Source: Streptomyces sp. NBC_00457
GTDB taxonomy: Bacteria; Actinomycetota; Actinomycetes; Streptomycetales; Streptomycetaceae
DNA: 64,000 nucleotides
Assembly (NCBI RefSeq): GCF_036014015.1
Contig: NZ_CP107905.1
Location: forward strand, 4,278,001 to 4,342,000
Direction: 5' to 3'
Part shown: positions 22,624 to 48,816 of the stretch, one piece after another
How the letters are laid out: each line of letters opens with the position of its first letter
How positions within the stretch are numbered: the stretch's first letter is position 1
The notes under the pieces: generated by a model
Seen by the model: the letters and a program-made list of their open reading frames with translations, nothing else
Told to the model about the DNA's origin: nothing
Database searches by the model: none
Made by a program: the position numbers and the translations under genes

Positions 22624-22635
22624 CTACGCGCGTAG
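22624..22635. promoter_or_regulatory. nucleoside-regulon operator-like palindrome upstream of deoC
   Basis: CTACGCGCGTAG, a perfect 12-base palindrome, 13 bases before the GTG start of deoC. The same palindrome occurs upstream of add and the importer operon, and a variant TAACGCGCGTAG upstream of both bmp genes. Placement at all five nucleoside transcription units argues for a repressor operator. Confidence 0.8.
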
Positions 22636-22648
22636 ATATGCTCGTCTG

Positions 22649-23605
22649 GTGACCATGCCCACCACTGCACATACCCTCACGGACGTGGCGGCCTCCGAGA
22701 GCACGCTGCGTCGGTTCCTCCATGGGCTGCCCGGCGTCGACGCGGTCGGCCTGGAGGCGCGTGCCGCCTCACTCGGTACCCGTTCGATCAAGACGACCGC
22801 GAAGGCGTACGCGATCGACCTCGCCATCTCGATGGTCGACCTGACGACGCTGGAAGGCGCGGACACCCCGGGCAAGGTCCGGGCGCTCGGCGCCAAGGCG
22901 GTCCGCCCCGACCCGACCGACCGTACGGCCCCCGCCACGGCCGCGGTCTGCGTCTACCCCGACATGGTGCCCGCCGCGAAGGCGGCCGTCGCCGGTTCCA
23001 CGGTCAAGGTCGCCTCGGTCGCCACCGCCTTCCCGGCGGGCCGCGCGCCGATCGTCGTCAAGCTGGCCGACGTCCGCGAGGCCGTCGCCGCGGGCGCCGA
23101 CGAGATCGACATGGTCATCGACCGCGGGGCCTTCCTCGCGGGGAACTACATGAAGGTGTACGACGAGATCGTCGCCGTGAAGGAGGCCTGCGGGGCGAGT
23201 GCCCGCCTGAAGGTCATCTTCGAGACCGGCGAGCTGTCGACGTACGACAACATCCGGCGCGCGAGCTGGCTCGGCATGCTGGCGGGCGCCGACTTCATCA
23301 AGACCTCGACCGGCAAGGTCGCCGTCAACGCCACTCCCGCGAACACGCTCCTCATGCTGGAGGCGGTGCGCGACTTCCGTGCCCAGACCGGCGTGCAGGT
23401 GGGCGTGAAGCCCGCCGGCGGCATCCGTACGTCCAAGGACGCGATCAAGTTTCTCGTTCTGGTCAACGAGACCGCCGGGGAGGACTGGCTGGACAACCAC
23501 TGGTTCCGCTTCGGCGCGTCCTCGCTCCTGAACGATCTGCTGATGCAGCGTCAGAAGCTGGCCACCGGCCGCTACTCCGGTCCCGACTACGTGACGGTGG
23601 ACTGA
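22649..23605 (+). CDS. deoC: deoxyribose-phosphate aldolase
   Basis: 318 residues. Cleaves 2-deoxyribose-5-phosphate to glyceraldehyde-3-phosphate and acetaldehyde in the cytoplasm. The class I aldolase lysine lies in DFIKTSTGK, the second lysine in VGVKPAGGIR, with the typical DEIDMVID and VFETGELS-like KVIFETGEL strands. Start is GTG 22649 or ATG 22655; no clear ribosome site precedes either, and a leaderless message is possible. A perfect palindrome shared with other nucleoside genes lies 13 bases upstream. The aldehyde dehydrogenase gene follows after 6 bases, so acetaldehyde can be oxidised at once. Confidence 0.95.
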   Translation: MTMPTTAHTLTDVAASESTLRRFLHGLPGVDAVGLEARAASLGTRSIKTTAKAYAIDLAISMVDLTTLEGADTPGKVRALGAKAVRPDPTDRTAPATAAVCVYPDMVPAAKAAVAGSTVKVASVATAFPAGRAPIVVKLADVREAVAAGADEIDMVIDRGAFLAGNYMKVYDEIVAVKEACGASARLKVIFETGELSTYDNIRRASWLGMLAGADFIKTSTGKVAVNATPANTLLMLEAVRDFRAQTGVQVGVKPAGGIRTSKDAIKFLVLVNETAGEDWLDNHWFRFGASSLLNDLLMQRQKLATGRYSGPDYVTVD

Positions 23606-23611
23606 TCCATC

Positions 23612-25045
23612 ATGGCTTTTGAGTACGCACCCGCACCCGAGTCCCGCTCGATCGTCGACATCGCCCCGTCCTACGGCCTGTTCATCGACGGCGAGTTCGT
23701 GGAGGCGGCCGACGGCAAGGTCTTCAAGACCGTCTCGCCGTCCACCGAAGAGGTCCTCTCCGAGGTCGCCCAGGCCGGTGCCGAGGATGTCGACCGGGCG
23801 GTGAAGGCCGCCCGCAAGGCCTTCGAGAAGTGGTCGGCGCTGCCCGGCTCCGAGCGCGCCAAGTACCTCTTCCGCATCGCCCGCATCATCCAGGAGCGCG
23901 CCCGCGAGCTCGCCGTCCTGGAAACGCTGGACAACGGCAAGCCCATCAAGGAGACGAGGGACGCCGACCTTCCCCTCGTAGCGGCGCACTTCTTCTACTA
24001 CGCGGGCTGGGCGGACAAGCTGGAGCACGCCGGCTTCGGTGCCGCCCCCCGGCCGCTGGGCGTCGCCGGCCAGGTCATCCCCTGGAACTTCCCGCTGCTG
24101 ATGCTGGCGTGGAAGATCGCCCCGGCGCTGGCGACGGGCAACACGGTGGTGTTGAAGCCCGCCGAGACGACCCCGCTCTCCGCCCTGTTCTTCGCGGACA
24201 TCTGCCGCCAGGCCGGTCTGCCCAAGGGCGTCGTCAACATCCTTCCGGGATACGGCGACACGGGCGCGTCCCTGGTCGCGCACCCGGACGTGAACAAGGT
24301 GGCCTTCACCGGCTCCACCGCGGTCGGCAAGGAGATCGCCCGCACGGTCGCCGGCTCGAAGAAGAAGCTCACCCTCGAACTCGGCGGCAAGGGCGCGAAC
24401 ATCGTCTTCGACGACGCCCCGATCGACCAGGCGGTGGAGGGGATCGTCAACGGGATCTTCTTCAACCAGGGCCAGGTGTGCTGCGCGGGATCGAGGCTGC
24501 TGGTCCAGGAGTCGATCCAGGACGAGCTGCTGGAGTCCCTGAAGCGCCGTCTGTCGACGCTGCGCCTCGGTGACCCGCTGGACAAGAACACGGACATCGG
24601 CGCGATCAACTCGGCCGAACAGCTCTCGCGCATCACGTCCCTGGTCGAGCAGGGCGAGGCGGAGGGCGCCGAGCGCTGGTCCGCACCGTGCGAACTCCCC
24701 TCCTCCGGCTACTGGTTCGCCCCGACGCTCTTCATGAACGTCACCCAGGCCCACACCGTCGCCCGCGACGAGATTTTCGGCCCGGTGCTGTCCGTCCTCT
24801 CCTTCCGCACCCCGGACGAGGCGGTCGCCAAGGCCAACAACACGCCGTACGGGCTGTCGGCGGGCATCTGGACCGAGAAGGGTTCGCGGATCCTGGCGGT
24901 GGCGAACAAGCTCCGCGCGGGCGTGATCTGGTCCAACACGTTCAACAAGTTCGACCCGACCTCGCCCTTCGGCGGCTACAAGGAGTCGGGCTTCGGCCGC
25001 GAGGGCGGCCGCCACGGCCTGGAGGCGTACCTCGATGTCCGATAA
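23612..25045 (+). CDS. aldehyde dehydrogenase (NAD(P)-dependent)
   Basis: 477 residues. Oxidises aldehydes; behind deoC the natural candidate is acetaldehyde. Cofactor-binding PWNFPLLMLAWK and FTGSTAVGKEIA, catalytic Glu in LELGGKGANIVF, catalytic Cys in FFNQGQVCCAGSR and the late motifs EIFGPVLSV and PFGGYKESGFGREGG are all present, so it should be active. The next gene starts inside its last 11 bases. The operon order deoC-ALDH-ALDH-like suggests that the two dehydrogenase-family products act together. Confidence 0.93.
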   Translation: MAFEYAPAPESRSIVDIAPSYGLFIDGEFVEAADGKVFKTVSPSTEEVLSEVAQAGAEDVDRAVKAARKAFEKWSALPGSERAKYLFRIARIIQERARELAVLETLDNGKPIKETRDADLPLVAAHFFYYAGWADKLEHAGFGAAPRPLGVAGQVIPWNFPLLMLAWKIAPALATGNTVVLKPAETTPLSALFFADICRQAGLPKGVVNILPGYGDTGASLVAHPDVNKVAFTGSTAVGKEIARTVAGSKKKLTLELGGKGANIVFDDAPIDQAVEGIVNGIFFNQGQVCCAGSRLLVQESIQDELLESLKRRLSTLRLGDPLDKNTDIGAINSAEQLSRITSLVEQGEAEGAERWSAPCELPSSGYWFAPTLFMNVTQAHTVARDEIFGPVLSVLSFRTPDEAVAKANNTPYGLSAGIWTEKGSRILAVANKLRAGVIWSNTFNKFDPTSPFGGYKESGFGREGGRHGLEAYLDVR

Positions 25046-25934
25046 GTCCGAGCAGCAGCGACTCAGCGTCTTCAAGACCTACAAGCTGTACGTCGGCGGG
25101 AAGTTCCCGCGTTCCGAGAGCGGCCGGGTGTACGAGGTGACGGACTCGAAGGGCAAGTGGCTGGCCAACGCGCCGCTCTCCTCCCGCAAGGACGCCCGGG
25201 ACGCGGTGGTCGCCGCCCGCAAGGCCTTCGGCGGCTGGTCCGGCGCGACCGCGTACAACCGCGGCCAGATCCTCTACCGCGTCGCGGAGATGCTGGAGGG
25301 CCGCCGCGATCAGTTCACGCGCGAAGTGGCCGACGCCGAAGGACTCTCCAAGTCCAAGGCGGCGGGGGTCGTGGACGCCACGATCGACCGCTGGGTCTGG
25401 TACGCGGGCTGGACCGACAAGATCGCCCAGGTGGTCGGCGGCGGCAACCCGGTCGCGGGCCCGTTCTTCAACCTCTCCTCGCCCGAGCCGACGGGCGTCG
25501 TCGCCGTCCTCGCCCCCCAGGAGTCGTCCTTCCTGGGCCTGGTCTCGGTCGTCGCCCCGGTGATCGCGACCGGCAACACGGCGATCGTGGTGGCGAGCGA
25601 GAAGTCCCCGCTGCCCGCCCTGTCGCTGGGCGAAGTGCTGGCCACCTCCGACCTGCCCGGCGGTGTCGTCAACCTCCTCTCCGGCCGTACGGCGGAGATC
25701 GCGGCGCCCCTGGCCGCGCACCAGGACGTCAACGCGATCGACCTCGCGGGCGCCGATGACGTACTCGCGAAGGAACTGGAGATCGCGGCGGCCGACAACC
25801 TCAAGCGCGTCCTGCGTCCACAGCCTGTGGATTACACGGCGACCCCGGGCACCGAGCGCCTGACGGCATTCCTGGAGACGAAGACGGTCTGGCACCCGAC
25901 GGGGTCGCTGGGCGCGTCCGGCTCGTCGTATTAG
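25035..25934 (+). CDS. truncated aldehyde dehydrogenase-family protein without catalytic domain
   Basis: 299 residues against about 480 for the family. It aligns with the N-terminal half of aldehyde dehydrogenases (VGGKFPRSESGRVYEV, AARKAFGGWSGATAYNRGQI, WVWYAGWTDKIAQV, PTGVVAVLAPQESSFL, ATGNTAIVV), but it lacks the ELGG glutamate segment and the catalytic cysteine, and ends with an unrelated tail. The reading frame is clean, coupled to the full-length gene by an 11-base overlap, so this does not look like decay. A regulatory or structural partner of the active enzyme is inferred; independent activity is improbable. Confidence 0.85.
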   Translation: MSDKSEQQRLSVFKTYKLYVGGKFPRSESGRVYEVTDSKGKWLANAPLSSRKDARDAVVAARKAFGGWSGATAYNRGQILYRVAEMLEGRRDQFTREVADAEGLSKSKAAGVVDATIDRWVWYAGWTDKIAQVVGGGNPVAGPFFNLSSPEPTGVVAVLAPQESSFLGLVSVVAPVIATGNTAIVVASEKSPLPALSLGEVLATSDLPGGVVNLLSGRTAEIAAPLAAHQDVNAIDLAGADDVLAKELEIAAADNLKRVLRPQPVDYTATPGTERLTAFLETKTVWHPTGSLGASGSSY

Positions 25935-25959
25935 AGGTACTGGAGCCGCCCGAGACCGG

Positions 25960-25999
25960 AGAGCCGCGCTTCCCCTCCGTCCAGGGAAGGCGCGGCTCT
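25960..25999 (+). terminator. hairpin after the deoC-ALDH operon
   Basis: AGAGCCGCGCTTCCC (25960-25974) pairs with GGGAAGGCGCGGCTCT (25984-25999) with one bulged G and a 9-base loop. It lies 25 bases after the last stop of the operon. Confidence 0.8.
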
Positions 26000-26069
26000 C
26001 TGTGATGCGCACTTCACATGCCGACCCACGGCTTCGATGAACGGCAAGTGAATGCCACACTGGTGTCCC

Positions 26070-26705
26070 GTGAGTTCCCAACCGGCCATACCGACGCGAG
26101 TCGTGCTGCTCTGCGGCCCCTCCGGCTCCGGCAAGTCCCTGCTCGCCGCCCGCTCCGGTCTTCCGGTGCTGCGGCTCGACGACTTCTACAAGGAGGGCGA
26201 CGACCCGACGCTGCCGCAGGTCCTCGGGAGCTCCGACATCGACTGGGACCATCCCGACTCCTGGGACGCGGACACCGCCGTCGCCGCCATCGCGGAGCTG
26301 TGCCGCACGGGTCGTACGGACGTCCCGCTGTACGACATCTCCCGCAGCGCCCGCACCGGCGCGGAGACCGTCGACATCGGGCGCACCCCGCTGTTCATCG
26401 CGGAGGGCATCTTCGCCGCCGAGATCGTCACGCGCTGCCGTGAGCTCGGCGTCCTGGCCGACGCGCTGTGTCTGAGCCGCGGACCGGTGCGGACCTTCCG
26501 GCGCCGTTTCCTGCGGGATCTGAAGGAGGGGCGCAAGTCCGTGCCGTTCCTGCTGCGGCGGGGCTGGCGGCTGATGCGTGCCGAGCGGTCCATCGTGGCC
26601 CGTCAGACCGCGCTGGGCGCGTACGCCTGCGACCGCGACGAGGCGATGGGGCGGCTGGCGGACGCGGCGGCCGGGCGGTGCGCGACGGCGCGTACGGCGG
26701 TCTAG
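26070..26705 (+). CDS. uridine kinase-like P-loop kinase
   Basis: 211 residues. Phosphorylates uridine/cytidine in pyrimidine salvage by family assignment. P-loop LLCGPSGSGKSLLA, substrate segment LRLDDFYKEGDDPTLP, a downstream IFIAEGIFAAE-like strand (LFIAEGIFAAEIV) and the lid RTFRRRFLRDLKEGRK. GTG 26070 or ATG 26052 could start it; neither has a clear ribosome site. It stands alone between two terminators, close to the deoC operon and sigQ. Confidence 0.85.
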   Translation: MSSQPAIPTRVVLLCGPSGSGKSLLAARSGLPVLRLDDFYKEGDDPTLPQVLGSSDIDWDHPDSWDADTAVAAIAELCRTGRTDVPLYDISRSARTGAETVDIGRTPLFIAEGIFAAEIVTRCRELGVLADALCLSRGPVRTFRRRFLRDLKEGRKSVPFLLRRGWRLMRAERSIVARQTALGAYACDRDEAMGRLADAAAGRCATARTAV

Positions 26706-26737
26706 GCGCCGCCCCGGCGTCGTACCGCACACACGAA

Positions 26738-26776
26738 AGCGGGACTGGACGGACCCCCCGGCCCACCAGTCCCGCT
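26738..26776. terminator. hairpin between uridine kinase and sigQ
   Basis: AGCGGGACTGG (26738-26748) pairs with CCAGTCCCGCT (26766-26776); an 11-base perfect stem followed by CCTTTGT. It lies between convergent genes and can serve both. The next hundred bases are a C-rich tract without a gene. Confidence 0.8.
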
Positions 26777-26869
26777 CCTTTGTGCTCCCCCGTGGTCCCC
26801 CGTGACCCCGTTGGTTCCCCCCGGAACCGTTCCCCCGTGCTACCCCGTTACTTGCTTCCCCCCAGACCT

Positions 26870-27616
26870 TCAGGCGACAAGCTCCCCGAAGGACTCCTCC
26901 TCGTCACGGCCGAAGCTGAGGACCTCGTCCTCGCGCAGCCGGCGGAGCGACCGCCAGATGCTGGACTTCACCGTGCCGACACTGATGTCGAGGATCTCCG
27001 CGATCTCCGGGTCGGTGCGGCCCTCGTAGTAACGGAGGACCAGCATCGTCCGCTGGAGTTCGGGCAGCCGGGCCAGCGCCTGCCACAGGACCGCGCGCAG
27101 TTCCGTGCCGCGCATCGCGTCCGTGTCGCCGGGCGTCTCCGGCAGTTCCTCGGTCGGGTATTCGTTCAGCTTGCGGCGCCGCCACGCGCTGATGTGCAGG
27201 TTCGTCATGGTGCGGCGGAGGTAGCCCCCGACCGCGGCCTTGTCACTGATCCGGTCCCACGCCCGGTACGTCGAGAACAGCGCGCTCTGCAGCAGGTCCT
27301 CGGCCTCGAAGCGGTCACCGGTGAGGTGGTAGGCGGTTGCGTACAGGGAGGCGCGGCGCTCCTGGACGTAGGCGGTGAACTCCGCCTCCGACAGCGAGCG
27401 CCGACGCTCCCCCGAGTCCTCCCCGTACGCGGTTCCCCCGTGCGTTTCCCCCGTGAGACCGTCAACCACCGTCATGTACGCGGTGTGCTGACGCCCGGTG
27501 CCGCGAGCGCACCCCCGCCCGCTCACGGCACCGGACTTCTCGGAACCCCGGCCCCCGTTCACGTCGTGCAGACGCGTGACAACTGCGCTTGCGCTCGTGC
27601 TGTGCAGCGTGTTCAT
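26870..27616 (-). CDS. sigQ: SigE-family RNA polymerase sigma factor SigQ
   Basis: 248 residues. Region 2 reads SLYATAYHLTGDRFEAEDLLQ and AVGGYLRRTMTNLHISAWRRR, region 4 LPELQRTMLVLRYYEGRTDPEIAEILDISVGTVKSS, typical of the SigE family. A long N-terminal extension of about 80 residues precedes region 2. ATG 27616 is preceded by a G-run. It is transcribed away from afsQ1, the arrangement known for sigQ in S. coelicolor, where AfsQ1 controls sigQ and antibiotic production on certain nitrogen sources. Two GTnAC-n6-GTnAC-like boxes lie in the shared promoter region. Confidence 0.88.
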   Translation of the reverse strand: MNTLHSTSASAVVTRLHDVNGGRGSEKSGAVSGRGCARGTGRQHTAYMTVVDGLTGETHGGTAYGEDSGERRRSLSEAEFTAYVQERRASLYATAYHLTGDRFEAEDLLQSALFSTYRAWDRISDKAAVGGYLRRTMTNLHISAWRRRKLNEYPTEELPETPGDTDAMRGTELRAVLWQALARLPELQRTMLVLRYYEGRTDPEIAEILDISVGTVKSSIWRSLRRLREDEVLSFGRDEEESFGELVA

Positions 27617-32291: not shown

Positions 32292-33455
32292 TCAGCCCTC
32301 GGATGCCGTAGAACCGCTGGTGGAAGCGTTCTCGCGGAACAGCCATTCGGACTTCAGCTCGGCGTATCCCGGCTTGATGACGTCATTGATCATCGCCAGC
32401 CGTTCATCGAAAGGAATGAATGCTGACTTCATAGCATTGACCGAGAACCATTGCATGTCGTCAAGGGTGTACCCGAATGCCTCGACTAGGTGCTCGAATT
32501 CCCGGCTCATACTGGTGTGGGACATCAGCCTATTGTCGGTGTTCACCGTGGCCCGGAAATGCAGCCGCCGCAGCAGCCCGATCGGGTGCTCGGCGTACGA
32601 GGCCGCGGCGCCGGTCTGCAGGTTGGAGCTGGGGCACAGCTCCAGCGGGACGCGCTTGTCCCGTACGTACGAGGCGAGCCGCCCGAGCTTCACCGAGCCG
32701 TCGGCGTGCACCTGGATGTCGTCGATGATCCGCACCCCGTGCCCGAGCCGGTCGGCGCCGCACCACTGGAGGGCCTGCCAGATGGACGGCAGGCCGAAGG
32801 CCTCGCCCGCGTGGATGGTGAAGTGGTTGTTCTCGCGCTTGAGGTACTCGAAGGCGTCCAGGTGCCGGGTGGGCGGGTAGCCGGCCTCGGCGCCGGCGAT
32901 GTCGAAGCCGACGACGCCCAAGTCGCGGTAACGGTTGGCGAGTTCGGCGATCTCCAGGGCGCGGGCGGCGTGCCGCATGGCGGTGAGCAGGGCGCCGACG
33001 CGGATGCGGTGGCCGTTCGCGCGGGCGGTCCGCTCGCCTTCCCGGAAGCCCTCGTTGACGGCCTCGACGACCTCTTCGAGGGTGAGCCCGCCTTCGAGGT
33101 GCTGCTCGGGCGCGTACCGCACCTCCGCGTACACGACGCCGTCCTCGGCGAGGTCCTCGGCACACTCGGCGGCGACCCGGACGAGCGACTCACGGGTCTG
33201 CATGACACCGACGGTGTGGGAGAACGTTTCCAAGTACCGCTCCAGAGAACCGGAGTCGGCGGATTCCCGGAACCAGACGCCGAGCTTGTCCGGGTCGGTC
33301 TCGGGGAGCTGGGAGTAGCCCGTCGCGCGGGCGAGGTCGACGATCGTGCCGGGGCGCAGCCCGCCGTCGAGGTGGTCGTGCAGCAGAACCTTGGGTGCCC
33401 GGCGGATCTGGTCCGAGCTCGGTGTGTTTCCCATCGGGGCAGTCTGGCTCGTCAT
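32292..33455 (-). CDS. add: adenosine deaminase
   Basis: 387 residues. Deaminates (deoxy)adenosine to (deoxy)inosine in the cytoplasm, feeding purine nucleoside phosphorylase. Metal ligands in [19 protein letters not shown] with catalytic Glu, and the late [12 protein letters not shown]; all intact. ATG 33455 has little room for a ribosome site; the palindrome CTACGCGCGTAG ends 16 bases upstream, close to the probable transcription start. Divergent from the hydrolase-fold gene. Confidence 0.95.
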
Positions 33456-33471: not shown

Positions 33472-33483
33472 CTACGCGCGTAG
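33472..33483. promoter_or_regulatory. nucleoside-regulon operator-like palindrome upstream of add
   Basis: Perfect CTACGCGCGTAG, 16 bases upstream of the add ATG on the minus strand and about 86 bases before the divergent hydrolase gene. Identical to the sites at deoC and at the importer operon. Confidence 0.8.
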
Positions 33484-39712: not shown

Positions 39713-39760
39713 GACGATCGACGGCCCGTCACGGCACTTCCAGCGGAGCGCTCAGGCGCG

Positions 39761-41053
39761 TCAGGCAATACGCTCCCGCACCACCGGCGACGCCTTGAAG
39801 TCCGTCCCCGCCGCCGAGACGTCGTACGAACCCTCCACCGCCTCCAGGGCGTACGCGAAGCGTTCCGGCGTGTCCGTGTGCAGGGTCAGCAGGGGCTGGC
39901 CCTCGGTCACCGTGTCTCCCGGCTTGGCGTGCAGCTCCACGCCCGCGCCCGCCTGGACCGGGTCCTCCTTGCGGGCACGCCCCGCGCCGAGGCGCCAGGC
40001 GGCGACGCCGATGTCGTAGGCGTCGAGGCGGGTCAGGACGCCGGAGGCGCTCGCCTTCACCACGTGCTGCTCGCGCGCCACCGGCAGTTCCGCGTCCGGG
40101 TCGCCGCCCTGTGCCGCGATCATGCGCCGCCAGACGTCCATCGCGGAGCCGTCGGCCAGGGCCTTCGCCGGGTCGGTGTCACGGATGCCCGCCGCGTCGA
40201 GCATTTCGCGGGCCAGGGCGATGGTCAGCTCCACGACGTCCGAGGGGCCGCCGCCCGCCAGGACCTCGACCGACTCCCGGACCTCAAGGGCGTTACCGGC
40301 CGTCAGGCCCAGCGGGGTCGACATGTCCGTCAGGAGCGCGACCGTCTTGACGCCGTGGTCGGTGCCCAGGCCCACCATCGTGGACGCCAGTTCCCGCGCG
40401 TCCTCGATGGTCTTCATGAACGCGCCCGTGCCGACCTTGACGTCCAGGACGAGCGAGCCCGTGCCCTCGGCGATCTTCTTCGACATGATCGAGGAGGCGA
40501 TCAGGGGGATCGCCTCGACCGTGCCGGTCACATCGCGCAGGGCGTACAGCTTCTTGTCCGCGGGGGCCAGGCCGTCGCCCGCCGCGCAGATAACCGCGCC
40601 GACGCCGTCCAGCACGGACAGCATCTCCTCGTTCGAGAGCAGCGCCCGCCAGCCGGGGATCGACTCCAGCTTGTCCAGTGTGCCGCCGGTGTGGCCGAGG
40701 CCTCGGCCCGACAGCTGGGGCACGGCCGCCCCGCACGCCGCGACCAGCGGGGCCAGCGGAAGCGTAATCTTGTCGCCGACCCCGCCCGTCGAGTGCTTGT
40801 CAGCCGTGGGACGGGACAGCGACGAGAAGTCCATGCGCTCGCCGGAGGCGATCATCGCGGCCGTCCAGCGGGCGATCTCCCGGCGGTTCATGCCGTTGAG
40901 CAGGATCGCCATCGCGAGCGCGGACATCTGCTCGTCGGCGACCTCCCCGCGGGTGTACGCGTCGATGACCCAGTCGATCTGCACGTCGCTGAGTTCACCG
41001 CGGTCCCGCTTGGTACGGATGACGGAGATGGCATCCGTCGACAAAGCAGCCAT
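39761..41053 (-). CDS. deoA: thymidine/pyrimidine-nucleoside phosphorylase
   Basis: 430 residues. Phosphorolysis of thymidine, deoxyuridine and perhaps uridine. Family signature SGRGLGHTGGTLDKLES, phosphate site KHSTGGVGDK, late LTRLDAYDIGVAAWRLGAGR. ATG 41053 has GGAAGGA five bases upstream. Last gene of the importer operon; 70 bases with a hairpin separate it from cdd, so it is expected to be co-transcribed at a different level. Confidence 0.95.
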   Translation of the reverse strand: MAALSTDAISVIRTKRDRGELSDVQIDWVIDAYTRGEVADEQMSALAMAILLNGMNRREIARWTAAMIASGERMDFSSLSRPTADKHSTGGVGDKITLPLAPLVAACGAAVPQLSGRGLGHTGGTLDKLESIPGWRALLSNEEMLSVLDGVGAVICAAGDGLAPADKKLYALRDVTGTVEAIPLIASSIMSKKIAEGTGSLVLDVKVGTGAFMKTIEDARELASTMVGLGTDHGVKTVALLTDMSTPLGLTAGNALEVRESVEVLAGGGPSDVVELTIALAREMLDAAGIRDTDPAKALADGSAMDVWRRMIAAQGGDPDAELPVAREQHVVKASASGVLTRLDAYDIGVAAWRLGAGRARKEDPVQAGAGVELHAKPGDTVTEGQPLLTLHTDTPERFAYALEAVEGSYDVSAAGTDFKASPVVRERIA

Positions 41054-41084
41054 GGCGTTCCTTCCGAAAAGAGCAAGAAAGTGC

Positions 41085-41116
41085 GCGGCCCCTCCGATCC
41101 GGTTCGAAGGGGCCGC
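41085..41116 (-). promoter_or_regulatory. intercistronic hairpin between cdd and deoA
   Basis: GCGGCCCCT (41085-41093) pairs with AGGGGCCGC (41108-41116), loop 14. It lies within the operon, so it may stabilise the cdd message or partly terminate before deoA. Confidence 0.6.
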
Positions 41117-41123
41117 ACGGGAG

Positions 41124-41513
41124 TTACTTGGCGAGGTGCCCCGGCCCGAAGGCCTGCGGCAGCATCTGAGACAGCGGCAGGATGCCCGCCGGTGTCTCAA
41201 GCAGCAGGTCCGGGCCGCCGAACTCGTACAGCAGCTGCCGGCAGCGGCCGCACGGGACGAGGATGTCGCCCTTGCCGTCGACGCAGGTGAAGTGCGTCAG
41301 CCGGCCGCCGCCGGTGCGCTGCAGCTCCGAGACGAGCCCGCACTCGGCGCACAGCCCGAGCCCGTAGGAGGCGTTCTCGACATTGCAGCCGGAGACCGTG
41401 CGGCCGTCGTCGACCAGGGCGGCGACGCCGACCGGGTAGCCCGAGTAGGGGGCGTACGCATGGGACATGGCGTCCCTCGCCACCGACCGCAGGGCCTCCC
41501 AGTCGACGGTCAC
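41124..41513 (-). CDS. cdd: cytidine deaminase
   Basis: 129 residues, the size of tetrameric zinc-dependent cytidine deaminases. Zinc and catalytic motifs CAECG (Cys-Ala-Glu) and PCGRCRQ; substrate part NVENASYG. Converts (deoxy)cytidine to (deoxy)uridine for DeoA. GTG start overlaps the permease stop (GTGA at 41510-41513), which couples salvage to import. Confidence 0.95.
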   Translation of the reverse strand: MTVDWEALRSVARDAMSHAYAPYSGYPVGVAALVDDGRTVSGCNVENASYGLGLCAECGLVSELQRTGGGRLTHFTCVDGKGDILVPCGRCRQLLYEFGGPDLLLETPAGILPLSQMLPQAFGPGHLAK

Positions 41514-42784
41514 TTGCCTTGTCCCTTCCGGTACGGCATGCCGTCCGCCTTCGGCATGCGCAGCCGCTGGGCGGACAACGCGAGGACGATCAGCGTGATG
41601 ACGTACGGCGTGGCCGAGACGACCTGGTTGGGAACCTCGTTGGTGCCGGCGTACCAGGCGAACACCAGGCCGCCGATGAGCAGGGTGACCGCGGACGAGG
41701 TGTACTTCTTCCGGAACGCCAGCCAGATCGCGCCGATGACCAGCAGCAGCGCCCCGAGCAGCAGCAGCGCGTGGACGTTCTCGGAGCCGCCGCGCAGGTT
41801 GAGGCTGTCGGTGTAGCCGAACAGGCCCGCGCCGATGGCGAGTCCGCCCGGCATCCAGTTACCGAAGATCATCGCGGCGAGGCCGATGTAGCCGCGACCG
41901 CTGACCTGGCCCTCCAGATAGAAGGGGTTGGCGACGATGGAGAGGAACGCGCCACCGAGGCCCGCCAGACCGCCCGAGATGATGACGGCCAGGTACTTGT
42001 ACTTGTAGACGTTCACACCGAGCGACTCGGCGGCGACCGGGTTCTCACCGCAGGACCGCAGCCGCAGACCGAACGCCGTGCGCCACAGGATCCACCAGGT
42101 CGCGGGGATCAGCGCGACGGCGATCAGGGTCAGCCAGGAGACATTGGTGATCAGGCCGCCGAGCAGTCCGGCGACGTCGGAGATGAAGAACCAGCCCTTT
42201 TCGTTGAGGTCCCGCAGGCCGTCGGAGAGACCTGGCACCGTGAAGTTGCCGAGCGAGTCGATCGCCGGGGACTGCTTGGCGGAGCCGCCCTCGTGGCCCT
42301 CGAAGGCGAGAGGCGCGAGATAGCGGGTGGCGCCCAGGGCGAGGATGTTGATGGCCACACCGGAGACGATGTGGTTGACGTTGAAGGTGACGGTGACGAG
42401 GGCGTGCAGCAGACCGCCGACGCAGCCGCCGATGATGCCGACGAGGACACCGGTCCACGGGCCCCACTGGAACCCGGCCCAGGCGCCGAACCAGGTGCCG
42501 AGGATCATCATGCCCTCGAGGCCGATGTTGACGACGCCCGCGCGCTCGGCCCACAGACCGCCGAGACCGGCGAGACCGATCGGCACGGCGAGCTGGAGCG
42601 CGGTGGACATCTGGCTGACGTTGGTGATGCCGTCGGCGCCGGTGATGATGCGGACGATCGAGGTCAGCGCCAGGGCTCCGGCGATGACCAGCAGCACGAC
42701 GGGCCACGACAGGCGCCGGCCGGTCGGCGCCGCGGGCTGCAGCGTGGGCTGGTTGACGTCGGTCGCCGAGATGGGGGCGGTCAT
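41510..42784 (-). CDS. nucleoside ABC transporter permease 2
   Basis: 424 residues, about ten helices. Branched-chain-type permease of the BMP/nucleoside importer family: LGGLWAERAGVVNIGLEGMM, HIVSGVAINILALGATRYL and the coupling loop RSCGENPVAAESLGVNVY. ATG overlaps the stop of the first permease (ATGA at 42781-42784), and cdd starts within its stop. A heterodimer with permease 1 is expected. Confidence 0.93.
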   Translation of the reverse strand: MTAPISATDVNQPTLQPAAPTGRRLSWPVVLLVIAGALALTSIVRIITGADGITNVSQMSTALQLAVPIGLAGLGGLWAERAGVVNIGLEGMMILGTWFGAWAGFQWGPWTGVLVGIIGGCVGGLLHALVTVTFNVNHIVSGVAINILALGATRYLAPLAFEGHEGGSAKQSPAIDSLGNFTVPGLSDGLRDLNEKGWFFISDVAGLLGGLITNVSWLTLIAVALIPATWWILWRTAFGLRLRSCGENPVAAESLGVNVYKYKYLAVIISGGLAGLGGAFLSIVANPFYLEGQVSGRGYIGLAAMIFGNWMPGGLAIGAGLFGYTDSLNLRGGSENVHALLLLGALLLVIGAIWLAFRKKYTSSAVTLLIGGLVFAWYAGTNEVPNQVVSATPYVITLIVLALSAQRLRMPKADGMPYRKGQGK

Positions 42785-43902
42785 CGGCCAGCCACCTCCT
42801 TCGTGGTGTTGGTGGCGCCGAGGACGTGACCGGCGGCCAGTTCAGCGCCGACGCGGCGCTGCTGGCGGCGCAGACCCCATTCGCGTACGGCCTCATAGGA
42901 GACGACGACCGAGAGCACGATCAGGCCCTGCATGATGACCGCGATCTCCTTGTCGTAGTCGTGGAAGTCCAGCTCGGGCGAGGCCTTGTCGAGCCAGGCC
43001 CACAGCAGGGCGGCGAAGGCGATGCCGACCGGGCTGTTGCGGCCGAGCAGGGCGATGCCGATACCGAGGAAGCCGATGCCGGTGGGGAAGTTGAGGTTGT
43101 AGGTGTGGGCGTCGCCGAGCAGGATCGGCAGGCCCGCGAGACCGGCGAGGCCGCCGGAGAGCAGCATGGCGGTGAGCACCATGCGCTTGGGGTCGACACC
43201 GCTGGCCGCGGCGGCGGTCTCCGAGGCGCCGGAGGCGCGCAGGTCGAAGCCGAACCGGGTGCGGTTGAGGGTGACCCAGAAGGCGATGCCGAGCACCACG
43301 GCGAGGATCACCAGGCCGTAGATCTCGCCCGCGTCGCCCATGTCGATGCCCGGCACCCAGCCGGACTCGTGCATCTCGCCGGTGGTGTTGTTGTTGCCGA
43401 CCTTCACACCGAAGACGTTCGGCAGCCACAGGTAGGCGATGACGGAGGTGGCGATCGCGTTCAGCATGATCGTCGCGACGACCTCGCTGACGCCCCGGGT
43501 GACCTTGAGGACACCGGCGATACCGGACCAGAAGGCGCCGGTGCAGACGGCGGTCAGGAGGAGCAGCGGGATCTGCAGGGCGGCCGGCAGATCGGCGTGG
43601 GCGCCGACGATCGCGGCCATCATGGCGGCGAGCTGGTACTGGCCGTCGACGCCGATGTTGAACAGGTTCATCCGGAAGCCGATGGCCACCGCGAGCGCCG
43701 CGATGTAGTACATCGAGGCCTGGTTGATGACCAGGACCTGGATGTCGGAGAACCCGATCTGCTCGAACATGATCGTGAACGGCTCGACCGGGTTCTTGCC
43801 CGAGGCGATCAGCACGATCGAGCTCAGCGCGAAGGCCACGGCGAGCGCGATGACCGGTCCGGCCACCGCGAGGAGCACGCGCTCCTTGTCGAACTTCTTC
43901 AT
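42781..43902 (-). CDS. nucleoside ABC transporter permease 1
   Basis: 373 residues, about eight to ten helices. FRMNLFNIGVDGQYQLAAMM and SGIAGVLKVTRGVSEVVATI are the family signatures; coupling loop LRASGASETAAAASGVDPKR. ATG 43902 lies one base after the stop of the ATPase gene; the longer frame is inside that gene. Confidence 0.93.
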   Translation of the reverse strand: MKKFDKERVLLAVAGPVIALAVAFALSSIVLIASGKNPVEPFTIMFEQIGFSDIQVLVINQASMYYIAALAVAIGFRMNLFNIGVDGQYQLAAMMAAIVGAHADLPAALQIPLLLLTAVCTGAFWSGIAGVLKVTRGVSEVVATIMLNAIATSVIAYLWLPNVFGVKVGNNNTTGEMHESGWVPGIDMGDAGEIYGLVILAVVLGIAFWVTLNRTRFGFDLRASGASETAAAASGVDPKRMVLTAMLLSGGLAGLAGLPILLGDAHTYNLNFPTGIGFLGIGIALLGRNSPVGIAFAALLWAWLDKASPELDFHDYDKEIAVIMQGLIVLSVVVSYEAVREWGLRRQQRRVGAELAAGHVLGATNTTKEVAGR

Positions 43903-43903
43903 T

Positions 43904-45511
43904 TCAGCGGGCCTCGTCTTCGCCGGGCTCGGGGGCGTCTTCGGGGGTTTCCTCGTGCTCCAGATGACCGGTGGCCGCACCGGTCATGGCCGAGCCGAGC
44001 TCCTCCGGGGTGATGGTGGCCGGATCGGCGTCGGCGACCAGCTTGCCGTTGTAGATCACGCGGAGGGTGTCGGACAGGCCGATCAGCTCGTCCAGATCGG
44101 CGGAGATCAGCAGCACCGCAAGCCCCTCCCGCCGCGCCTCGCGAATGTGATCCCAGATGGCGGCCTGCGCACCGACGTCCACACCGCGGGTGGGGTGGGA
44201 GGCGATGAGGAAGCGCGGCTTGTGGGTCATCTCGCGGCCGACGATCAGCTTCTGCTGGTTGCCTCCGGACAGGGAGGAGGCGGTGACGTCGATGCCGGGG
44301 GTGCGGACGTCGTACGCCTCGACGATCCGGCGCGTGTCCTCCTGCGCGGCCTTCGGATCGAGCCATACGCCCTTGGCGTTCGGCTTCTCGGTGACGTGCC
44401 CGAGGATGCGGTTCTCCCAGAGCGGCGCCTCCAGGAGCAGTCCATGGCGGTGCCGGTCCTCGGGGATGTACCCGATGCCCTGCTCACGGCGCTTACGGGT
44501 GGTCCAGCCGGTGATCTCCTCCTCCGCCAGCGTGATGGTGCCGGAGTCGGCGGCCTTGAGCCCGATGAGCGCGTCGACCAGTTCGGTCTGCCCGTTGCCC
44601 TCGACACCGGCGATACCGAGCACCTCACCGGCGTGAATGGTGAAGGTGATGTCGTCGAGCAGCGCCTTGCCCCCGAACGCCTCCAGCCGCAGCTTCTCCA
44701 CGCTGATGACCGGACGGTCGGTGACGGTCGACTCGGCGGTCTCCGGCGTGGGCAGCTCGCTGCCGACCATCATCTCGGCGAGCTGACGCGAGGTGGTCTC
44801 GGCGGGAACAGCGGTCCCCACAGTGGTCCCCCGCCGGATGACGGTGATCTCGTCGGCGACCGACAGCACCTCGCCCAGCTTGTGCGAGATGAAGATGACC
44901 GACAGCCCCTCGGCCCGCAGCTCACGCAGATTGTCGAACAGAGCGTCGACTTCCTGCGGCACAAGCACAGCCGTCGGCTCGTCCAGAATCAGAGTGGTCG
45001 CACCCCGATAAAGAACCTTCAGAATCTCCACCCGCTGCCGGGCGGCGACGCCGAGCTCCTCCACGAGCACATCGGGCCGCACCCCCAGCCCGTACCGCTC
45101 GGAGATCTCCTTGATCTTCCGCCGGGCCCTGCCCCCGATGCCGTACAGCTTCTCGCTGCCCAGCACCACGTTCTCGAGGACGGTCAGATTGTCGGCGAGC
45201 ATGAAGTGCTGGTGCACCATGCCGATGCCGCGGGCGATGGCGTCGGCGGGACTGCCGAAGCTGACCTGCTCACCGTCGATCGCGATGGTGCCCTCGTCCG
45301 GTTTCTGCATGCCGTAGAGGATCTTCATCAGCGTCGACTTGCCGGCGCCGTTCTCTCCGACGAGGGCGTGGACGGTGCCCTTGCGGACCGTGAGGTGGAT
45401 GTCGTGGTTGGCCACGACGCCCGGGAAACGCTTTGTGATCCCGGCGAGCTCGACGGCGGTCACCTGACCGTTGACCGCCGCGCCGGCCGGAGGGCTGCTG
45501 GACGCGTTGAT
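43904..45511 (-). CDS. nucleoside ABC transporter ATP-binding protein (two ABC domains), possible ATC start
   Basis: 535 residues if read from 45511. Duplicated ABC ATPase as in ribose/nucleoside importers: first domain Walker A GENGAGKSTLMKIL, signature-like LGVAARQRVEILKVL, Walker B LILDEPTAVL; second domain GVEGNGQTELVDAL, LSGGNQQKLIVGREM, FLIASHPTRGVD. The first in-frame GTG is at 45463 without ribosome site, whereas AGGAGA stands seven bases before an ATC at 45511, followed by an open frame INASSSPPAGAAVNGQ. An ATC start is therefore proposed; if wrong the protein begins at 45463. Palindrome CTACGCGCGTAG lies 28 bases upstream of the ATC. Confidence 0.92.
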   Translation of the reverse strand: MNASSSPPAGAAVNGQVTAVELAGITKRFPGVVANHDIHLTVRKGTVHALVGENGAGKSTLMKILYGMQKPDEGTIAIDGEQVSFGSPADAIARGIGMVHQHFMLADNLTVLENVVLGSEKLYGIGGRARRKIKEISERYGLGVRPDVLVEELGVAARQRVEILKVLYRGATTLILDEPTAVLVPQEVDALFDNLRELRAEGLSVIFISHKLGEVLSVADEITVIRRGTTVGTAVPAETTSRQLAEMMVGSELPTPETAESTVTDRPVISVEKLRLEAFGGKALLDDITFTIHAGEVLGIAGVEGNGQTELVDALIGLKAADSGTITLAEEEITGWTTRKRREQGIGYIPEDRHRHGLLLEAPLWENRILGHVTEKPNAKGVWLDPKAAQEDTRRIVEAYDVRTPGIDVTASSLSGGNQQKLIVGREMTHKPRFLIASHPTRGVDVGAQAAIWDHIREARREGLAVLLISADLDELIGLSDTLRVIYNGKLVADADPATITPEELGSAMTGAATGHLEHEETPEDAPEPGEDEAR

Positions 45512-45539
45512 GGCGCACTCTCCTGGGGACGGGGGTCGT

Positions 45540-45551
45540 CTACGCGCGTAG
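45540..45551. promoter_or_regulatory. nucleoside-regulon operator-like palindrome upstream of importer operon
   Basis: Perfect CTACGCGCGTAG, upstream of the ATPase-permease-permease-cdd-deoA operon and downstream of the bmp1 terminator. Confidence 0.8.
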
Positions 45552-45590
45552 CGCCCCTACGGCATTCAAAGGGGCCGACGCATTCGCTGA

Positions 45591-45628
45591 CAACGGGGTA
45601 CGGGGAGAAGCCTCCCCGTACCCCGTTG
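45591..45628 (-). terminator. 17-bp perfect hairpin between bmp1 and importer operon
   Basis: CAACGGGGTACGGGGAG (45591-45607), loop AAGC, CTCCCCGTACCCCGTTG (45612-45628). It follows the bmp1 stop by 46 bases, so bmp1 should be a separate transcript from the operon. Confidence 0.92.
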
Positions 45629-45673
45629 AGCGGACGTAACCCCGCGGTTACACGCTGCTCAGGGTCTCGATAT

Positions 45674-46720
45674 TCAGCTGGACTTGACCTTGATCTCGCC
45701 GCTGATGATCTTCTCCTTGGCCGTCTGGATGGCTTCCTGGAGGGCGGCGTCGTCCGCGAACTTCGGGTTGGAGTCCGCGAGGCCGACCTCGCCGCTCTTC
45801 AGATCGCCACGAACGATACCGGTCTCGGGCTTACCGTCCTCGACCGACTTCGCCAGGTTGTAGACCGCCTTGGCGACGTCCTTGGTCGCCGAGGTCAGGA
45901 TGGATTCCTTGTACGTGGCGAGCGCTGCCTGCTTGTACTGGTCGGAGTCGACACCGATCGCCCACACCTTGTTGGCGGCGGCGGCTTCGATCACACCCTG
46001 CCCCGACAGACCGGCCGCCGCATACACGACATCGGCCTTCTTCTCGATCTGCCCCTCGGCGGCCGACTTGCCCTTGTCGGGGCTGGAGAAGCCGCCTTCC
46101 TCCGCGGTCTGCGTCAGGTACTGCGACAGAACCTTGACCTTCGGGTCGGTGTCCTTGACGCCCTGCGCGAAGCCGGCCTGGAACTTGTGGATCAACGGAA
46201 TATCCACACCACCCACAAAGCCCACGGTGTTGGTCTTGGTGCTCTTGGCGGCCGCCACACCGGCGAGGTAGGAGGCCTCCTCCTCGGAGAACACCAGGTC
46301 GGCCACGTTGTCCGCCTGGACCTGGGAGTCGTCGACGATGCCGAACGTCGTGTCCGGATACTTCTCGGCGACCTCCTTGACGGCCGGCGCGTACGCGTAG
46401 CCGACACCGATCACCGGGTTGTACCCCTGCTTCGCCAGGGAGGCCAGCCGCTGAGCCTTGTCGGCGTCCGTCTCCCCGTCCGTGGGCTCGACGTCGTCCG
46501 TCTCGTACCCGAACTCCTTCTTCGCCCTCTCCAGCCCCGCGTACGCGGCGTCGTTGAAGGACTGGTCGCCCTTGCCGCCGACGTCGTACGCGATGGCGAG
46601 GCCCTTGTCGCCGTCCGACTCCGACGAGGCGGAGGTGGACGTACCGCCACAGGCGGACAGAACGAGGGCGAGGGAGGCGGTCGCTGCGCCCGCGACCGCG
46701 AGGCGGGAAACCCGGCGCAT
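45674..46720 (-). CDS. BMP-family nucleoside-binding lipoprotein 1
   Basis: 348 residues. Lipobox LSACGG after MRRVSRLAVAGAATASLAL. BMP/Med-type binding protein: IAYDVGGKGDQSFNDAAYAG, PVIGVGYAYAPAVKEVAEKY, GVAAAKSTKTNTVGFVGGV, DVVYAAAGLSGQGVIEAA. It should deliver nucleosides to the downstream importer. ATG 46720 has AGGAG nine bases upstream. It has its own operator-like site 64 bases upstream and its own terminator. A close paralogue is encoded upstream. Confidence 0.95.
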   Translation of the reverse strand: MRRVSRLAVAGAATASLALVLSACGGTSTSASSESDGDKGLAIAYDVGGKGDQSFNDAAYAGLERAKKEFGYETDDVEPTDGETDADKAQRLASLAKQGYNPVIGVGYAYAPAVKEVAEKYPDTTFGIVDDSQVQADNVADLVFSEEEASYLAGVAAAKSTKTNTVGFVGGVDIPLIHKFQAGFAQGVKDTDPKVKVLSQYLTQTAEEGGFSSPDKGKSAAEGQIEKKADVVYAAAGLSGQGVIEAAAANKVWAIGVDSDQYKQAALATYKESILTSATKDVAKAVYNLAKSVEDGKPETGIVRGDLKSGEVGLADSNPKFADDAALQEAIQTAKEKIISGEIKVKSS

Positions 46721-47397
46721 GTTGTGGTGCTCCTGTCGTACGAGCGCCGGACGGATCGGCTACGGCGCTGGCTTCGCCGCAGATTAACGCGCGTAGACAA
46801 GCCTGAAAACCCCTTCTGTCCACCTTGTTACCCGCCCGTGCCCTGCGCTTCGCGGAGGGCGGCGCTGACGGGTGCCGCGGGTTGGTGCCGGCCAGGGGGT
46901 CGGTCACGCAGCCCGGCGCCGACAGGGTGCCGTGGGTTGGTGCCGGCCGGGGGTGGGTCGCACAGCCCGGCGCCGACGGGGCGCCGCCTGCGCCCACCCG
47001 TGCCGCCCCAGGCGGCACGCATGCCCGCAGCTTGGCGGAAGGGCAGCTCGCAGCTTGGCGGGACGGCAGCTCGCAGCTTGGCGGGGCGGCAGCCCGTGGG
47101 CGGGACGGTGCGGCCGCCTGCTGAGTGGGCGCCGCCCCCGCCACACGACTGCCCGCGCCCTGACGGGGTGGGACCGTGCTCCCGCAGTCGCGCGCGGCGG
47201 GAAGGGGACGGGGTGGGGGGTGTCCGCCCGCAGCGGCGGGCGTCAACGCGGGGTACCTGCGGAGAAGCGGCAACCGCCCGACCGAGGACGGACACCCCCA
47301 CCCCGGCCCCGACCCACCCCCCACCGGCAGGCGCTACGCGCACCCCCAACCAGCCGCAGCCCCGCCGGGAGGCACTCCGCACCCCCACACAACGCGA
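46721..47397. other. intergenic region rich in imperfect tandem repeats
   Basis: Between the two bmp genes. A 45-50 base unit beginning GGTGCCG(C/T)GGGTTGGTGCCGG is present twice in 46878-46980, and an 18-base unit around CGCAGCTTGGCGG three to four times in 47029-47105. Open frames over this stretch are low-complexity Ala/Arg/Gly and have no ribosome site; none is called. It may be an expansion left by duplication of the bmp gene. Confidence 0.6.
46785..46796. promoter_or_regulatory. operator-like site upstream of bmp1
   Basis: TAACGCGCGTAG, followed by ACA; core ACGCGCGTAG is identical to the other sites but the left flank differs at two positions. 64 bases upstream of the bmp1 ATG. Confidence 0.7.
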
Positions 47398-47431
47398 AGC
47401 GGGCCGGCACCCCATCGGATGCCGGCCCGCT
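47398..47431 (-). terminator. hairpin after bmp2
   Basis: AGCGGGCCGGCA (47398-47409), loop of 10, TGCCGGCCCGCT (47420-47431). 21 bases past the bmp2 stop. Confidence 0.88.
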
Positions 47432-47452
47432 CCACGTCAATCCAACCGCGGA

Positions 47453-48496
47453 CTACTCGGTCTTGACCTTGATGGACCCGTCGATGATCGCCGCCTTCGC
47501 CTTGGCCACCGCGTCCGACAGACCCGCGATCTTCGCGAACTCCGGGTTGCTCTCGGCGAGCCCGACGCCGTTCACCTTCAGGTCGAAGGTCTGGACACCC
47601 GCCAGCGGCTTACCGTCCTCGACCGACTTCGACAGCGCGTACACCGCACCGCCGACATCCTTCAGAGCCGACGTCAGGATGTAGTTCTTGTACTGCGCCA
47701 GCGCCGCCTGCTTGTACTGGTCGGAGTCGACCCCGATCGCCCACACCTTGGCCTTCGCCGCAGCCTCGATCACACCCTGCCCGGACAGCCCGGCAGCCTG
47801 GTAGACGACATCGGCCTTCTTCTCGATCTGACCCTCGGCCGCGGCCTTGCCCTTGTCGGGGCTGGAGAAGCCACCCTCCTCGGCGGTCTGCGTCAGATAC
47901 TGCGAGACGACCTTGACCTTCGGGTTGGTCTCCGCGACGCCCTGCTTGTAGCCGGCCTCGAACTTGTGGATCAGCGGGATGTCGACACCGCCGACAAAGC
48001 CAACCGTGTTGGTCTTCGTCGCCTTCGCCGCGGCGACACCGGCGAGGTAGGAGGCCTGCTCCTCGGCGAAGACGAGAGACGCGACATTGTCGCCCTCGAC
48101 GACCGAGTCCACGATGCCGAACGTGGTGTCCGGGTACTTCGAGGCCACGGCCTCCATCGCGGGACCGTAGGCGAACCCGATGCCGATCACGGGGTTGTAG
48201 CCCTGCTTGGCCAGCGAGGACAGCCGCTGCTCCTTGTCCGCATCGGTCTCGCCCTCGGTCGGCTCGACGTCGTCCGTCTTGTAGCCGAACTCCTTCTGAG
48301 CCTTCTGCAGGCCCGCGTACGCGGCGTCGTTGAAGGACTGGTCGCCCTTGCCGCCGATGTCGTACGCGATGGCGAGACCCAGATCCTCCTTGGCCTCGTC
48401 ACCACTGTCACTGCTGGTGCCACCGCATGCGGTCGCGGCGAGTGCGAGCGACGCGACCCCCACCGCGACGCGGGTCAGTTTGGATATCCGACGCAT
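47453..48496 (-). CDS. BMP-family nucleoside-binding lipoprotein 2
   Basis: 347 residues, paralogue of the other BMP lipoprotein over its whole length (for example IAYDIGGKGDQSFNDAAYAG, GVAAAKATKTNTVGFVGGV and AAGLSGQGVIEAAAKAKVWA). Lipobox TACGG. ATG 48496 is chosen because GGGGAA stands seven bases upstream; ATG 48511 would have a ribosome site too close. Operator-like TAACGCGCGTAG lies 54 bases upstream. Two binding proteins feeding one importer suggest different nucleoside preferences. Confidence 0.95.
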   Translation of the reverse strand: MRRISKLTRVAVGVASLALAATACGGTSSDSGDEAKEDLGLAIAYDIGGKGDQSFNDAAYAGLQKAQKEFGYKTDDVEPTEGETDADKEQRLSSLAKQGYNPVIGIGFAYGPAMEAVASKYPDTTFGIVDSVVEGDNVASLVFAEEQASYLAGVAAAKATKTNTVGFVGGVDIPLIHKFEAGYKQGVAETNPKVKVVSQYLTQTAEEGGFSSPDKGKAAAEGQIEKKADVVYQAAGLSGQGVIEAAAKAKVWAIGVDSDQYKQAALAQYKNYILTSALKDVGGAVYALSKSVEDGKPLAGVQTFDLKVNGVGLAESNPEFAKIAGLSDAVAKAKAAIIDGSIKVKTE

Positions 48497-48816
48497 CGTG
48501 AAGTTCCCCATTCTCCAAGCCCCGCAGTGGGTGCTGAGTTCGGCGCACAGTAACGCGCGTAGACACTCCTGGGAACGGGGTTTCGCGTGGCCGTTATCCA
48601 TTCGTGCCGATGGCCGGTTACGTCCTTGTGAACCACCGGATCGAAAGGTGTTCTTGGGACACCGCACCCCATGGGTCCCGCACGCTCCGTGTACCGGGGG
48701 TGCCGTCAGCGTGATGGCGCCCGGACATGAACGCCATGCGCTCAGGCTGCCCCCGCGATCCCCCGTCCGCAACCGGAACGAACCACCACCAGCCGCGCGC
48801 CCTACACCCGCCCGCC
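48497..48816. other. bmp2 promoter region
   Basis: About 320 bases between bmp2 and the amidohydrolase. It contains the operator-like palindrome at 48551-48562 and, further out, no recognisable gene or repeat. Confidence 0.5.
48551..48562. promoter_or_regulatory. operator-like site upstream of bmp2
   Basis: TAACGCGCGTAG followed by ACA, identical in 15 bases to the bmp1 site (TAACGCGCGTAGACA). 54 bases upstream of the ATG. Confidence 0.7.

Follow-up and report, generated by a model that had tools for sequence, protein, structure and literature searches.

A palindrome upstream of nucleoside genes

The subject of this analysis is a short palindromic word, CTACGCGCGTAG (hereinafter the 12-mer), that stands directly upstream of genes for the import and breakdown of nucleosides in Streptomyces sp. 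NBC_00457. The window, that is, the whole stretch analyzed, comprises 64,000 nucleotides (NZ_CP107905.1, positions 4,278,001 to 4,342,000 of the forward strand) and holds three exact copies of the 12-mer, at 22624, 33472 and 45540, against none in 100 dinucleotide shuffles of the same DNA. Gene identities were checked with NCBIfam models, for which deoC, add, deoA, cdd and deoD pass the curated cut-offs. The first copy (22624..22635, forward strand) lies 19 nt before the ATG of deoC, coding for deoxyribose-phosphate aldolase (22655..23605, forward strand; TIGR00126, 178 bits), and the second (33472..33483, reverse strand) lies 16 nt before the ATG of add, coding for adenosine deaminase (32292..33455, reverse strand; NF006847, 644 bits). 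The third (45540..45551, reverse strand) precedes by 76 nt the GTG of an operon on the same strand, which encodes an ATP-binding cassette (ABC) transporter ATPase (43904..45463), two ABC permeases (41510..43980, with the start of the first uncertain), the cytidine deaminase Cdd (41124..41513; NF004064, 179 bits) and the thymidine phosphorylase DeoA (39761..41200; NF004490, 643 bits from residue 55, the true start being probably downstream of that of the open reading frame). The transporter was assigned to its family through models below cut-off, and we infer its nucleoside specificity from the neighboring genes.

A variant of the word, TAACGCGCGTAG, which differs from CTACGCGCGTAG at 2 of 12 positions, occurs at 46785 and 48551; read in gene orientation, both sites have the half-degenerate form CTACGCGCGTTA, and each stands before a gene for a BMP-family lipoprotein on the reverse strand. 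One (46785..46796) lies 64 nt upstream of bmp1 (45674..46720), whose product is a BMP-type nucleoside-binding lipoprotein matching TmpC (2fqw; 1.4e-35) and the lipoprotein of 6ya3/6yab, and the other (48551..48562) lies 54 nt upstream of bmp2 (47453..48496), coding for a second such lipoprotein. The name PnrA is used for such a protein, and the lipoproteins of 2fqw and 6ya3/6yab bind nucleosides. An earlier note on this DNA, made from the letters alone, had placed the five sites just where we find them; the distances of 13–64 bases to the start codons that it gave hold for deoC, add, bmp1 and bmp2 and fall short for the importer. The similar string that it had mentioned near 17567, GCACGCGCGTAG at 17566, indeed falls within a predicted coding region.

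Across the whole genome (10.8 Mb, one contig), the exact 12-mer occurs four times and a reversed-pattern control once. All 4/4 copies stand before nucleoside genes and none before an unrelated one, in keeping with the note's expectation. The fourth copy (G000:4277710-4277721), 290 bp left of the window, precedes deoD, the gene for purine-nucleoside phosphorylase (TIGR01698, 343 bits on the whole gene), of which the 3′ part occupies 1..571 on the forward strand while its start and operator lie left of the window. Further genes of the locus include a phosphohexomutase-family gene after deoD (651..2360, forward strand; models below cut-off), which has no operator of its own and a probable phosphopentomutase role, and two aldehyde-dehydrogenase-like genes directly 3′ of deoC (23612..25934, forward strand; no equivalog above cut-off), which probably share its unit. 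We take the genes of the window to correspond to SCO numbers of S. coelicolor by name and gene order. Passages of the respective papers describe SCO4914 as deoxyribose-phosphate aldolase (PMC3293853), SCO4885 as a putative nucleoside-binding lipoprotein (PMC6593405) and SCO4901 as adenosine deaminase (PMC7244524).

Conservation and extent of the marked gene set

As the earlier note had anticipated, related species keep the palindrome. In 15 genomes of the genus (14 relatives and this one), with upstream regions anchored by tblastn, the 12-mer is exact at deoD in 15/15 and at deoC in 15/15, with drifting flanking bases. Where upstream DNA was available, it precedes add in 11 of 12 genomes and the importer in eight of 11 exactly and in three with one mismatch, and CTACGCGCGTTA precedes bmp1 in 8/8; not counted, with the upstream DNA missing, were add in G020, G026 and G085, the importer in G061, and bmp1 in G020 and G085. 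In G085 a site stands before the divergent neighbor of add. At pmm, cdd, lpd and deoR no site within two mismatches was seen in the 15 genomes. Separately, in G026 (L144) and G004 (L154) a site TCTACGCGCATAGA lies directly upstream of deoA, as if that gene had its own promoter there.

Beyond these genomes, a sample of the family contains the 12-mer in 60/61 genomes and 16/17 genera, and in ten divergent family genomes a site with at most two mismatches precedes deoD (10/10) and, where these were found, deoC (8/8) and add (6/6). A sample of the order contains two to six exact copies in 132/132 members of the genus and a single copy in 3/15 genomes outside it, two of these three copies lying within an apparent IMP dehydrogenase gene (L035, L036). 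A sample of the class yielded nine exact copies in 7/181 genomes outside the genus. Beside the out-of-genus copies no recognizable nucleoside-catabolic gene was found, three of the loci (L096, L098, L112) having given no gene calls. A genome outside the family with three exact copies (G230) resembled a case of independent conservation, but its copies were treated as chance: one lies ~630 bp upstream of a run of genes (L138:5472-8554) that by inspection comprises a sugar kinase, a radical-SAM protein, an IMP-dehydrogenase-like protein and a phosphoribosyltransferase, and the other two are near unrelated genes. The sites of the window belong to a real, family-wide operator.

To describe the operator, 20 sites of this genome, chosen partly by their downstream genes and oriented with the better half first, were combined into the 14-bp consensus TCTACGCGCGTAGA. 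The full operator would be this 14-mer, in which one half, TCTACGCG, is as a rule perfect and the other looser; the perfect half is nearly invariant across the 20 selected sites, and since these were oriented by their better half, the asymmetry of the matrix is partly by construction. The 14-mer is a palindrome of the halves TCTACGC and GCGTAGA, and its central CG is kept in 19/20 of the selected sites. Genome-wide, 11 sites are within one mismatch of the 14-mer, and nine of them precede nucleoside or nucleic-acid genes, as judged by family: deoD, deoC, add, the importer, a secreted EEP-family (endonuclease/exonuclease/phosphatase) protein, which by family is a nuclease or phosphatase, purSQ, a xanthine/uracil-type permease, a secreted HNH-type nuclease (GmrSD_C; the site lies around the start codon) and a second add gene, add2. 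Sixteen further sites have two mismatches, and seven of them precede genes of the same kind, namely those for endonuclease I (two of the seven sites), an ExeM/NucH-type nuclease (hereinafter ExeM), a 2′,3′-cyclic phosphodiesterase/nucleotidase, a 5′-nucleotidase and PhoX, together with bmp1. The genes for ExeM and the cyclic phosphodiesterase have a second site at three mismatches, and the site of bmp2 is likewise at three. Such weaker sites count through gene function and conservation alone. One-mismatch 12-mer sites within coding regions were taken as chance (L023, L028, L030, L016, L160 with two, L161, L163), and we likewise disregarded sites near rpoB, an M23 peptidase, a leucyl-aminopeptidase-like gene and a permease.

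Several of the distant sites recur in relatives. Exact copies outside the nucleoside cluster were seen at 14 loci in other family genomes, eight of which are add2 (in five relatives, with 88–91% identity to add2 of this genome), a 5′-nucleotidase gene (G035), purS (G018) and a position ~250 bp upstream of purN (G376); the other six comprise a HAD hydrolase gene, a transposase-like one, one for a secreted protein, a site within a coding region, and a further secreted-protein gene marked in two genomes, of which the one copy tested had no Pfam match. In G357 and G333, which belong to another genus, the cyclic phosphodiesterase gene keeps the identical 14 bases, TCTACGCGCGTTGT, and the ExeM gene keeps a two-mismatch site; in G357 the 5′-nucleotidase gene keeps its identical 14 bases as well. 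Among the half-site loci of these two genomes (23 of 23 listed in G357 and 13 of 14 listed in G333), 8/36 precede genes for BMP lipoproteins, the cyclic phosphodiesterase, 5′-nucleotidase, ExeM or an acid phosphatase, and the rest, as far as gene calls show, precede no such gene. In two genomes of another genus (L463, L472), we also observed TCTACGCGCGTCCA between what appear by inspection to be a small Ser/Thr/Cys-rich precursor-like gene and a peptidase-like gene.

Within the predicted regulon, the cluster and add2 are strong members; the genes for the secreted 5′-nucleotidase, the cyclic phosphodiesterase and ExeM have good support, and the remaining marked genes are tentative. The earlier note had seen in the sites a mark of five nucleoside-salvage units; the sites are real and the frame too narrow, for deoD, add2, secreted nucleases, nucleotidases, the permease and purSQ are also marked, with varying quality. 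A palindrome at purSQ or purN would tie salvage to synthesis. The purSQ site (G000:5744644, L306) lies beside an lsr2-like gene; the copies in relatives are those at purS in G018 (L105) and near purN in G376 (L478).

Proposed mode of action and candidate regulators

The operators lie on promoter-like elements as far as the eye can assign them. That of deoC fills the 17-bp spacer between TGTACA (22614-22619) and TATGCT (22637-22642); that of add ends 4 bp upstream of TAGAGT; the last two bases of the bmp1 operator lie in TAATCT (46781-46786); the bmp2 operator overlaps TACTGT (48547-48552) with its right end; the deoD operator covers the −35 position; and the importer operator seems to overlap the −35 element in relatives. 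Across genes and species the distance from operator to start codon varies from 0 to 168 nt, and the asymmetric half is found in both orientations (bmp versus endonuclease I). Repressors overlap the contacts of RNA polymerase at variable positions, whereas activators usually sit at a fixed position. As sites of both orientations overlap core promoter elements, we infer that the regulator acts as a repressor. A hairpin or other RNA-level device is unlikely at deoC and deoD, where the −10-like element follows the palindrome. At the deoC promoter (window near 22624) WblC may exert a second control, a passage of PMC7157823 reporting that in S. coelicolor the promoter of SCO4914 is bound and repressed by this protein.

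The exclusivity of the exact copies, their family-wide conservation and their placement on promoter-like elements, all seen in the sequence along with the site positions, make one shared regulator acting through the palindrome well supported. We further consider it likely, on the same comparisons, that the palindrome is the operator of a single DNA-binding repressor whose regulon, present across Streptomycetaceae, serves the consumption of nucleic acids from outside; binding, repression and an inducer are what we propose. When nucleosides are absent, the repressor would occupy the −35/−10 region and block RNA polymerase, and a nucleoside or one of its breakdown products would release it. The regulon would comprise secreted nucleases, secreted nucleotidases, the BMP/ABC nucleoside importer, deaminases, phosphorylases, deoC and the purine-type permease, with purSQ also marked. 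Of the one dedicated repressor in the earlier note, the shared regulator stands, and its repressing action is read from placement only. Streptomycetes break down some of their own mycelium, and dead cells surround them. With a 14-bp operator and a defined list of genes, the regulon can be put to a direct test; functions are also suggested for several secreted nucleases and for the BMP importer, and a specific protein emerges as the candidate repressor.

Several observations weigh against this interpretation. Loose forms of the word show no excess over the reversed control genome-wide, with 25 sites versus 45 for 12-mers at up to one mismatch and 182 versus 227 for 14-mers at up to three; because of this, the argument rests on placement and conservation, not on number. 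Nine of the 16 two-mismatch sites precede no nucleoside or nucleic-acid gene, and among the 11 best sites one precedes a CN_hydrolase gene of unclear role (best model N-carbamoylputrescine amidase, below cut-off) and one has no related neighbor. The add gene of G022 lacks the site, and so does the region directly upstream of the importer ATPase gene in 5/5 divergent family genomes; in G330 and G341 the ATPase gene follows a bmp gene with a site, and in two of the five the ATPase match is just 46–47% identical. The promoter of the importer is hard to make out in this genome, the reading of −10 and −35 elements by eye is a weakness, and an activator could act at promoters without a good −35, such as that of add.

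As the earlier note had stated, the gene for the regulator lies outside the window; a DeoR-family gene about 2.5 kb to the left fits poorly, and a distant LacI gene fits better. The most likely repressor, put forward tentatively from sequence features, would be a LacI/GalR protein encoded beside an apparent glnR (SCO4158 in S. coelicolor by naming), a neighbor that we take to be glnR from its sequence. LacI-family operators are even-length palindromes of ~14–16 bp with a central CG, the form that the 14-bp palindrome has. Because of this resemblance, LacI proteins were listed in four family genomes (the smallest set, of six proteins, being in G081); the survey spans 50 loci with the regulator readable in 24/30 and 8/20, and the comparison is hence partial. 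Among the 24 readable LacI genes only the candidate, in two genomes, has a promoter site within three mismatches; in G081 the half-site CGCGTAGA overlaps a −10-like TAGACT, and orthologues of the gene are present in all four genomes. Through it the protein would probably repress itself too. The half-site recurs in 80/80 LacI promoters among the loci listed (76 titled Streptomyces), which score 12.2–16.4 bits with a position weight matrix (PWM) built from the 20 sites, neither regulator's promoter included. For comparison, 71 of 714 upstream regions from stretches of the cluster reach 12 bits; as read from the listing, 67 of the 71 are at 14 bits or more and belong to known targets, their divergent neighbors or deoA, and the remaining four are a divergent LysR/MFS pair in two genomes. 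The string between these LysR and MFS genes (G004, L154; G061, L170) is TCTACGTTCGTCGT, at 12.8 bits, and is probably unrelated. The LacI promoter of G035 carries a site that differs from the 12-mer at one position, and that of G338 also has a site.

The candidate has helix-turn-helix and sugar-binding domains; its closest models are RbsR, PurR, GalS and CytR, all below cut-off, and its closest solved structures are CcpA, RbsR and PurR. Counting against it, the 80 promoters, being those of close relatives, are not independent of one another, the LacI promoter of G336 has no site though variant sites are kept there at deoC, deoD and add, and the gene is known from the loci of relatives, not placed in this genome itself. 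Two papers mention SCO4158: one calls it a LacI regulator encoded downstream of glnR and suggests that it acts on that gene (PMC9739823), and the other lists an ArgR-type box for it (PMC5839063). Somewhat more doubtful is the broader proposal that the LacI protein beside glnR may be the master repressor of nucleic-acid consumption in Streptomycetaceae, coupling secreted DNases and RNases, nucleotidases, nucleoside import and catabolism, and purSQ; if true, its control would link the recycling of the DNA of dying hyphae to nitrogen and carbon supply.

It is a serious possibility that the palindrome is instead read by some other family-wide regulator encoded elsewhere, from the GntR, TetR or IclR families or another LacI protein, inasmuch as regulators need be neither linked nor autoregulated and our comparison covered DeoR and LacI proteins alone (the latter in four genomes, partly read), which also counts against the LacI candidate. 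Against such a regulator, the candidate's promoter site is the only one within three mismatches among the 24 readable LacI genes, and a 14-bp site with a central CG fits LacI types.

Improbable, in our estimate, is the DeoR/GlpR-family protein encoded at G000:4274517-4275482 (SCO4920 orthologue by naming; DeoRC 5.6e-50, HTH_DeoR 1.8e-14). Its gene is linked, being 2.2 kb from the deoD operator, its orthologues in 132/132 genus and 61/61 family genomes have about the palindrome's range, and its helix-turn-helix segment is almost unchanged across the family; moreover, DeoR-family proteins often control nucleoside genes. Against these points, its own promoter holds nothing within two mismatches of the palindrome in 15/15 genus and 10/10 divergent genomes, 60 such promoters average −1.9 bits with the PWM (best 11.6), and a stretch of another kind, with TTTCG/TTCG words, is strongly conserved there. 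Some homologues with a similar helix-turn-helix in two other families stand beside sugar ABC transporter genes (L123-L125, L128; 4/14 loci) in genomes without the exact 12-mer. Since a regulator need not regulate itself, the lack of a site in its own promoter is not decisive, and we demoted DeoR on that account without excluding it. The promoter and first codons of this gene (L011:17483-17600, left of the window; L064-L093, L237-L256) are very strongly conserved across the family loci compared, including the low-GC codons GCTGCAGAACGTCG, which suggests another operator or an overlapping control element. Passages of two papers place the DeoR-family SCO4920 at the center of a network module with bldN (PMC3224704) and among glucose-affected regulators, where the text names DeoR-family ones as glucose-repressed (PMC4848846).

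More improbable still, the word could be a promoter element of an alternative sigma factor or an activator site and not a repressor operator. It does adjoin −10-like elements, and some targets lack a clear −35; however, it is a near-perfect palindrome, and deoC and bmp1 have −35/−10-like pairs 17 bp apart, as read by eye, without it. We set aside an alternative sigma element on the palindromy, the variable spacing to the start codon and the occurrence of the asymmetric half in both orientations. That the sites are chance GC-rich words, as the unremarkable number of loose forms might suggest, has next to no probability given the exclusivity of the exact copies and their absence from shuffles, and is refuted for the window by conservation in genus and family, although weak distant sites may still be chance.

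Relation to known systems

In a literature search that covered few subscription papers and no regulon databases, and is no proof of novelty, we found neither a description of this operator or regulon nor a named regulator of nucleic-acid use in streptomycetes. The arrangement has the generic form of a nucleoside-catabolism regulon, in which importer, deaminase, phosphorylase and deoC units share one operator upstream. As in the CytR/DeoR regulon of Escherichia coli, which has dedicated LacI- and DeoR-family repressors, deo, cdd and transport genes would be co-regulated; the operator there is a different one, and here secreted nucleases and nucleotidases are included and the lineage is Streptomycetaceae. 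With the PurR regulon (LacI family) it shares a central-CG operator and marked pur genes, and the LacI candidate reaches 171 bits against the PurR model, below its cut-off of 501; the main targets here are salvage and scavenging genes rather than biosynthesis. The CebR-type LacI operators of Streptomyces (TGGGAGCGCTCCCA) are likewise 14 bp long, with outer T...A and a central GCGC, but differ in the letters of the half-site and in the target genes. Finally, NupR, described in a passage of PMC9430930 as a GntR/HutC regulator of a nucleoside permease in Bacillus thuringiensis, is a similarly dedicated regulator of nucleoside transport in a Gram-positive bacterium, from which the repressor proposed here would differ in protein family.

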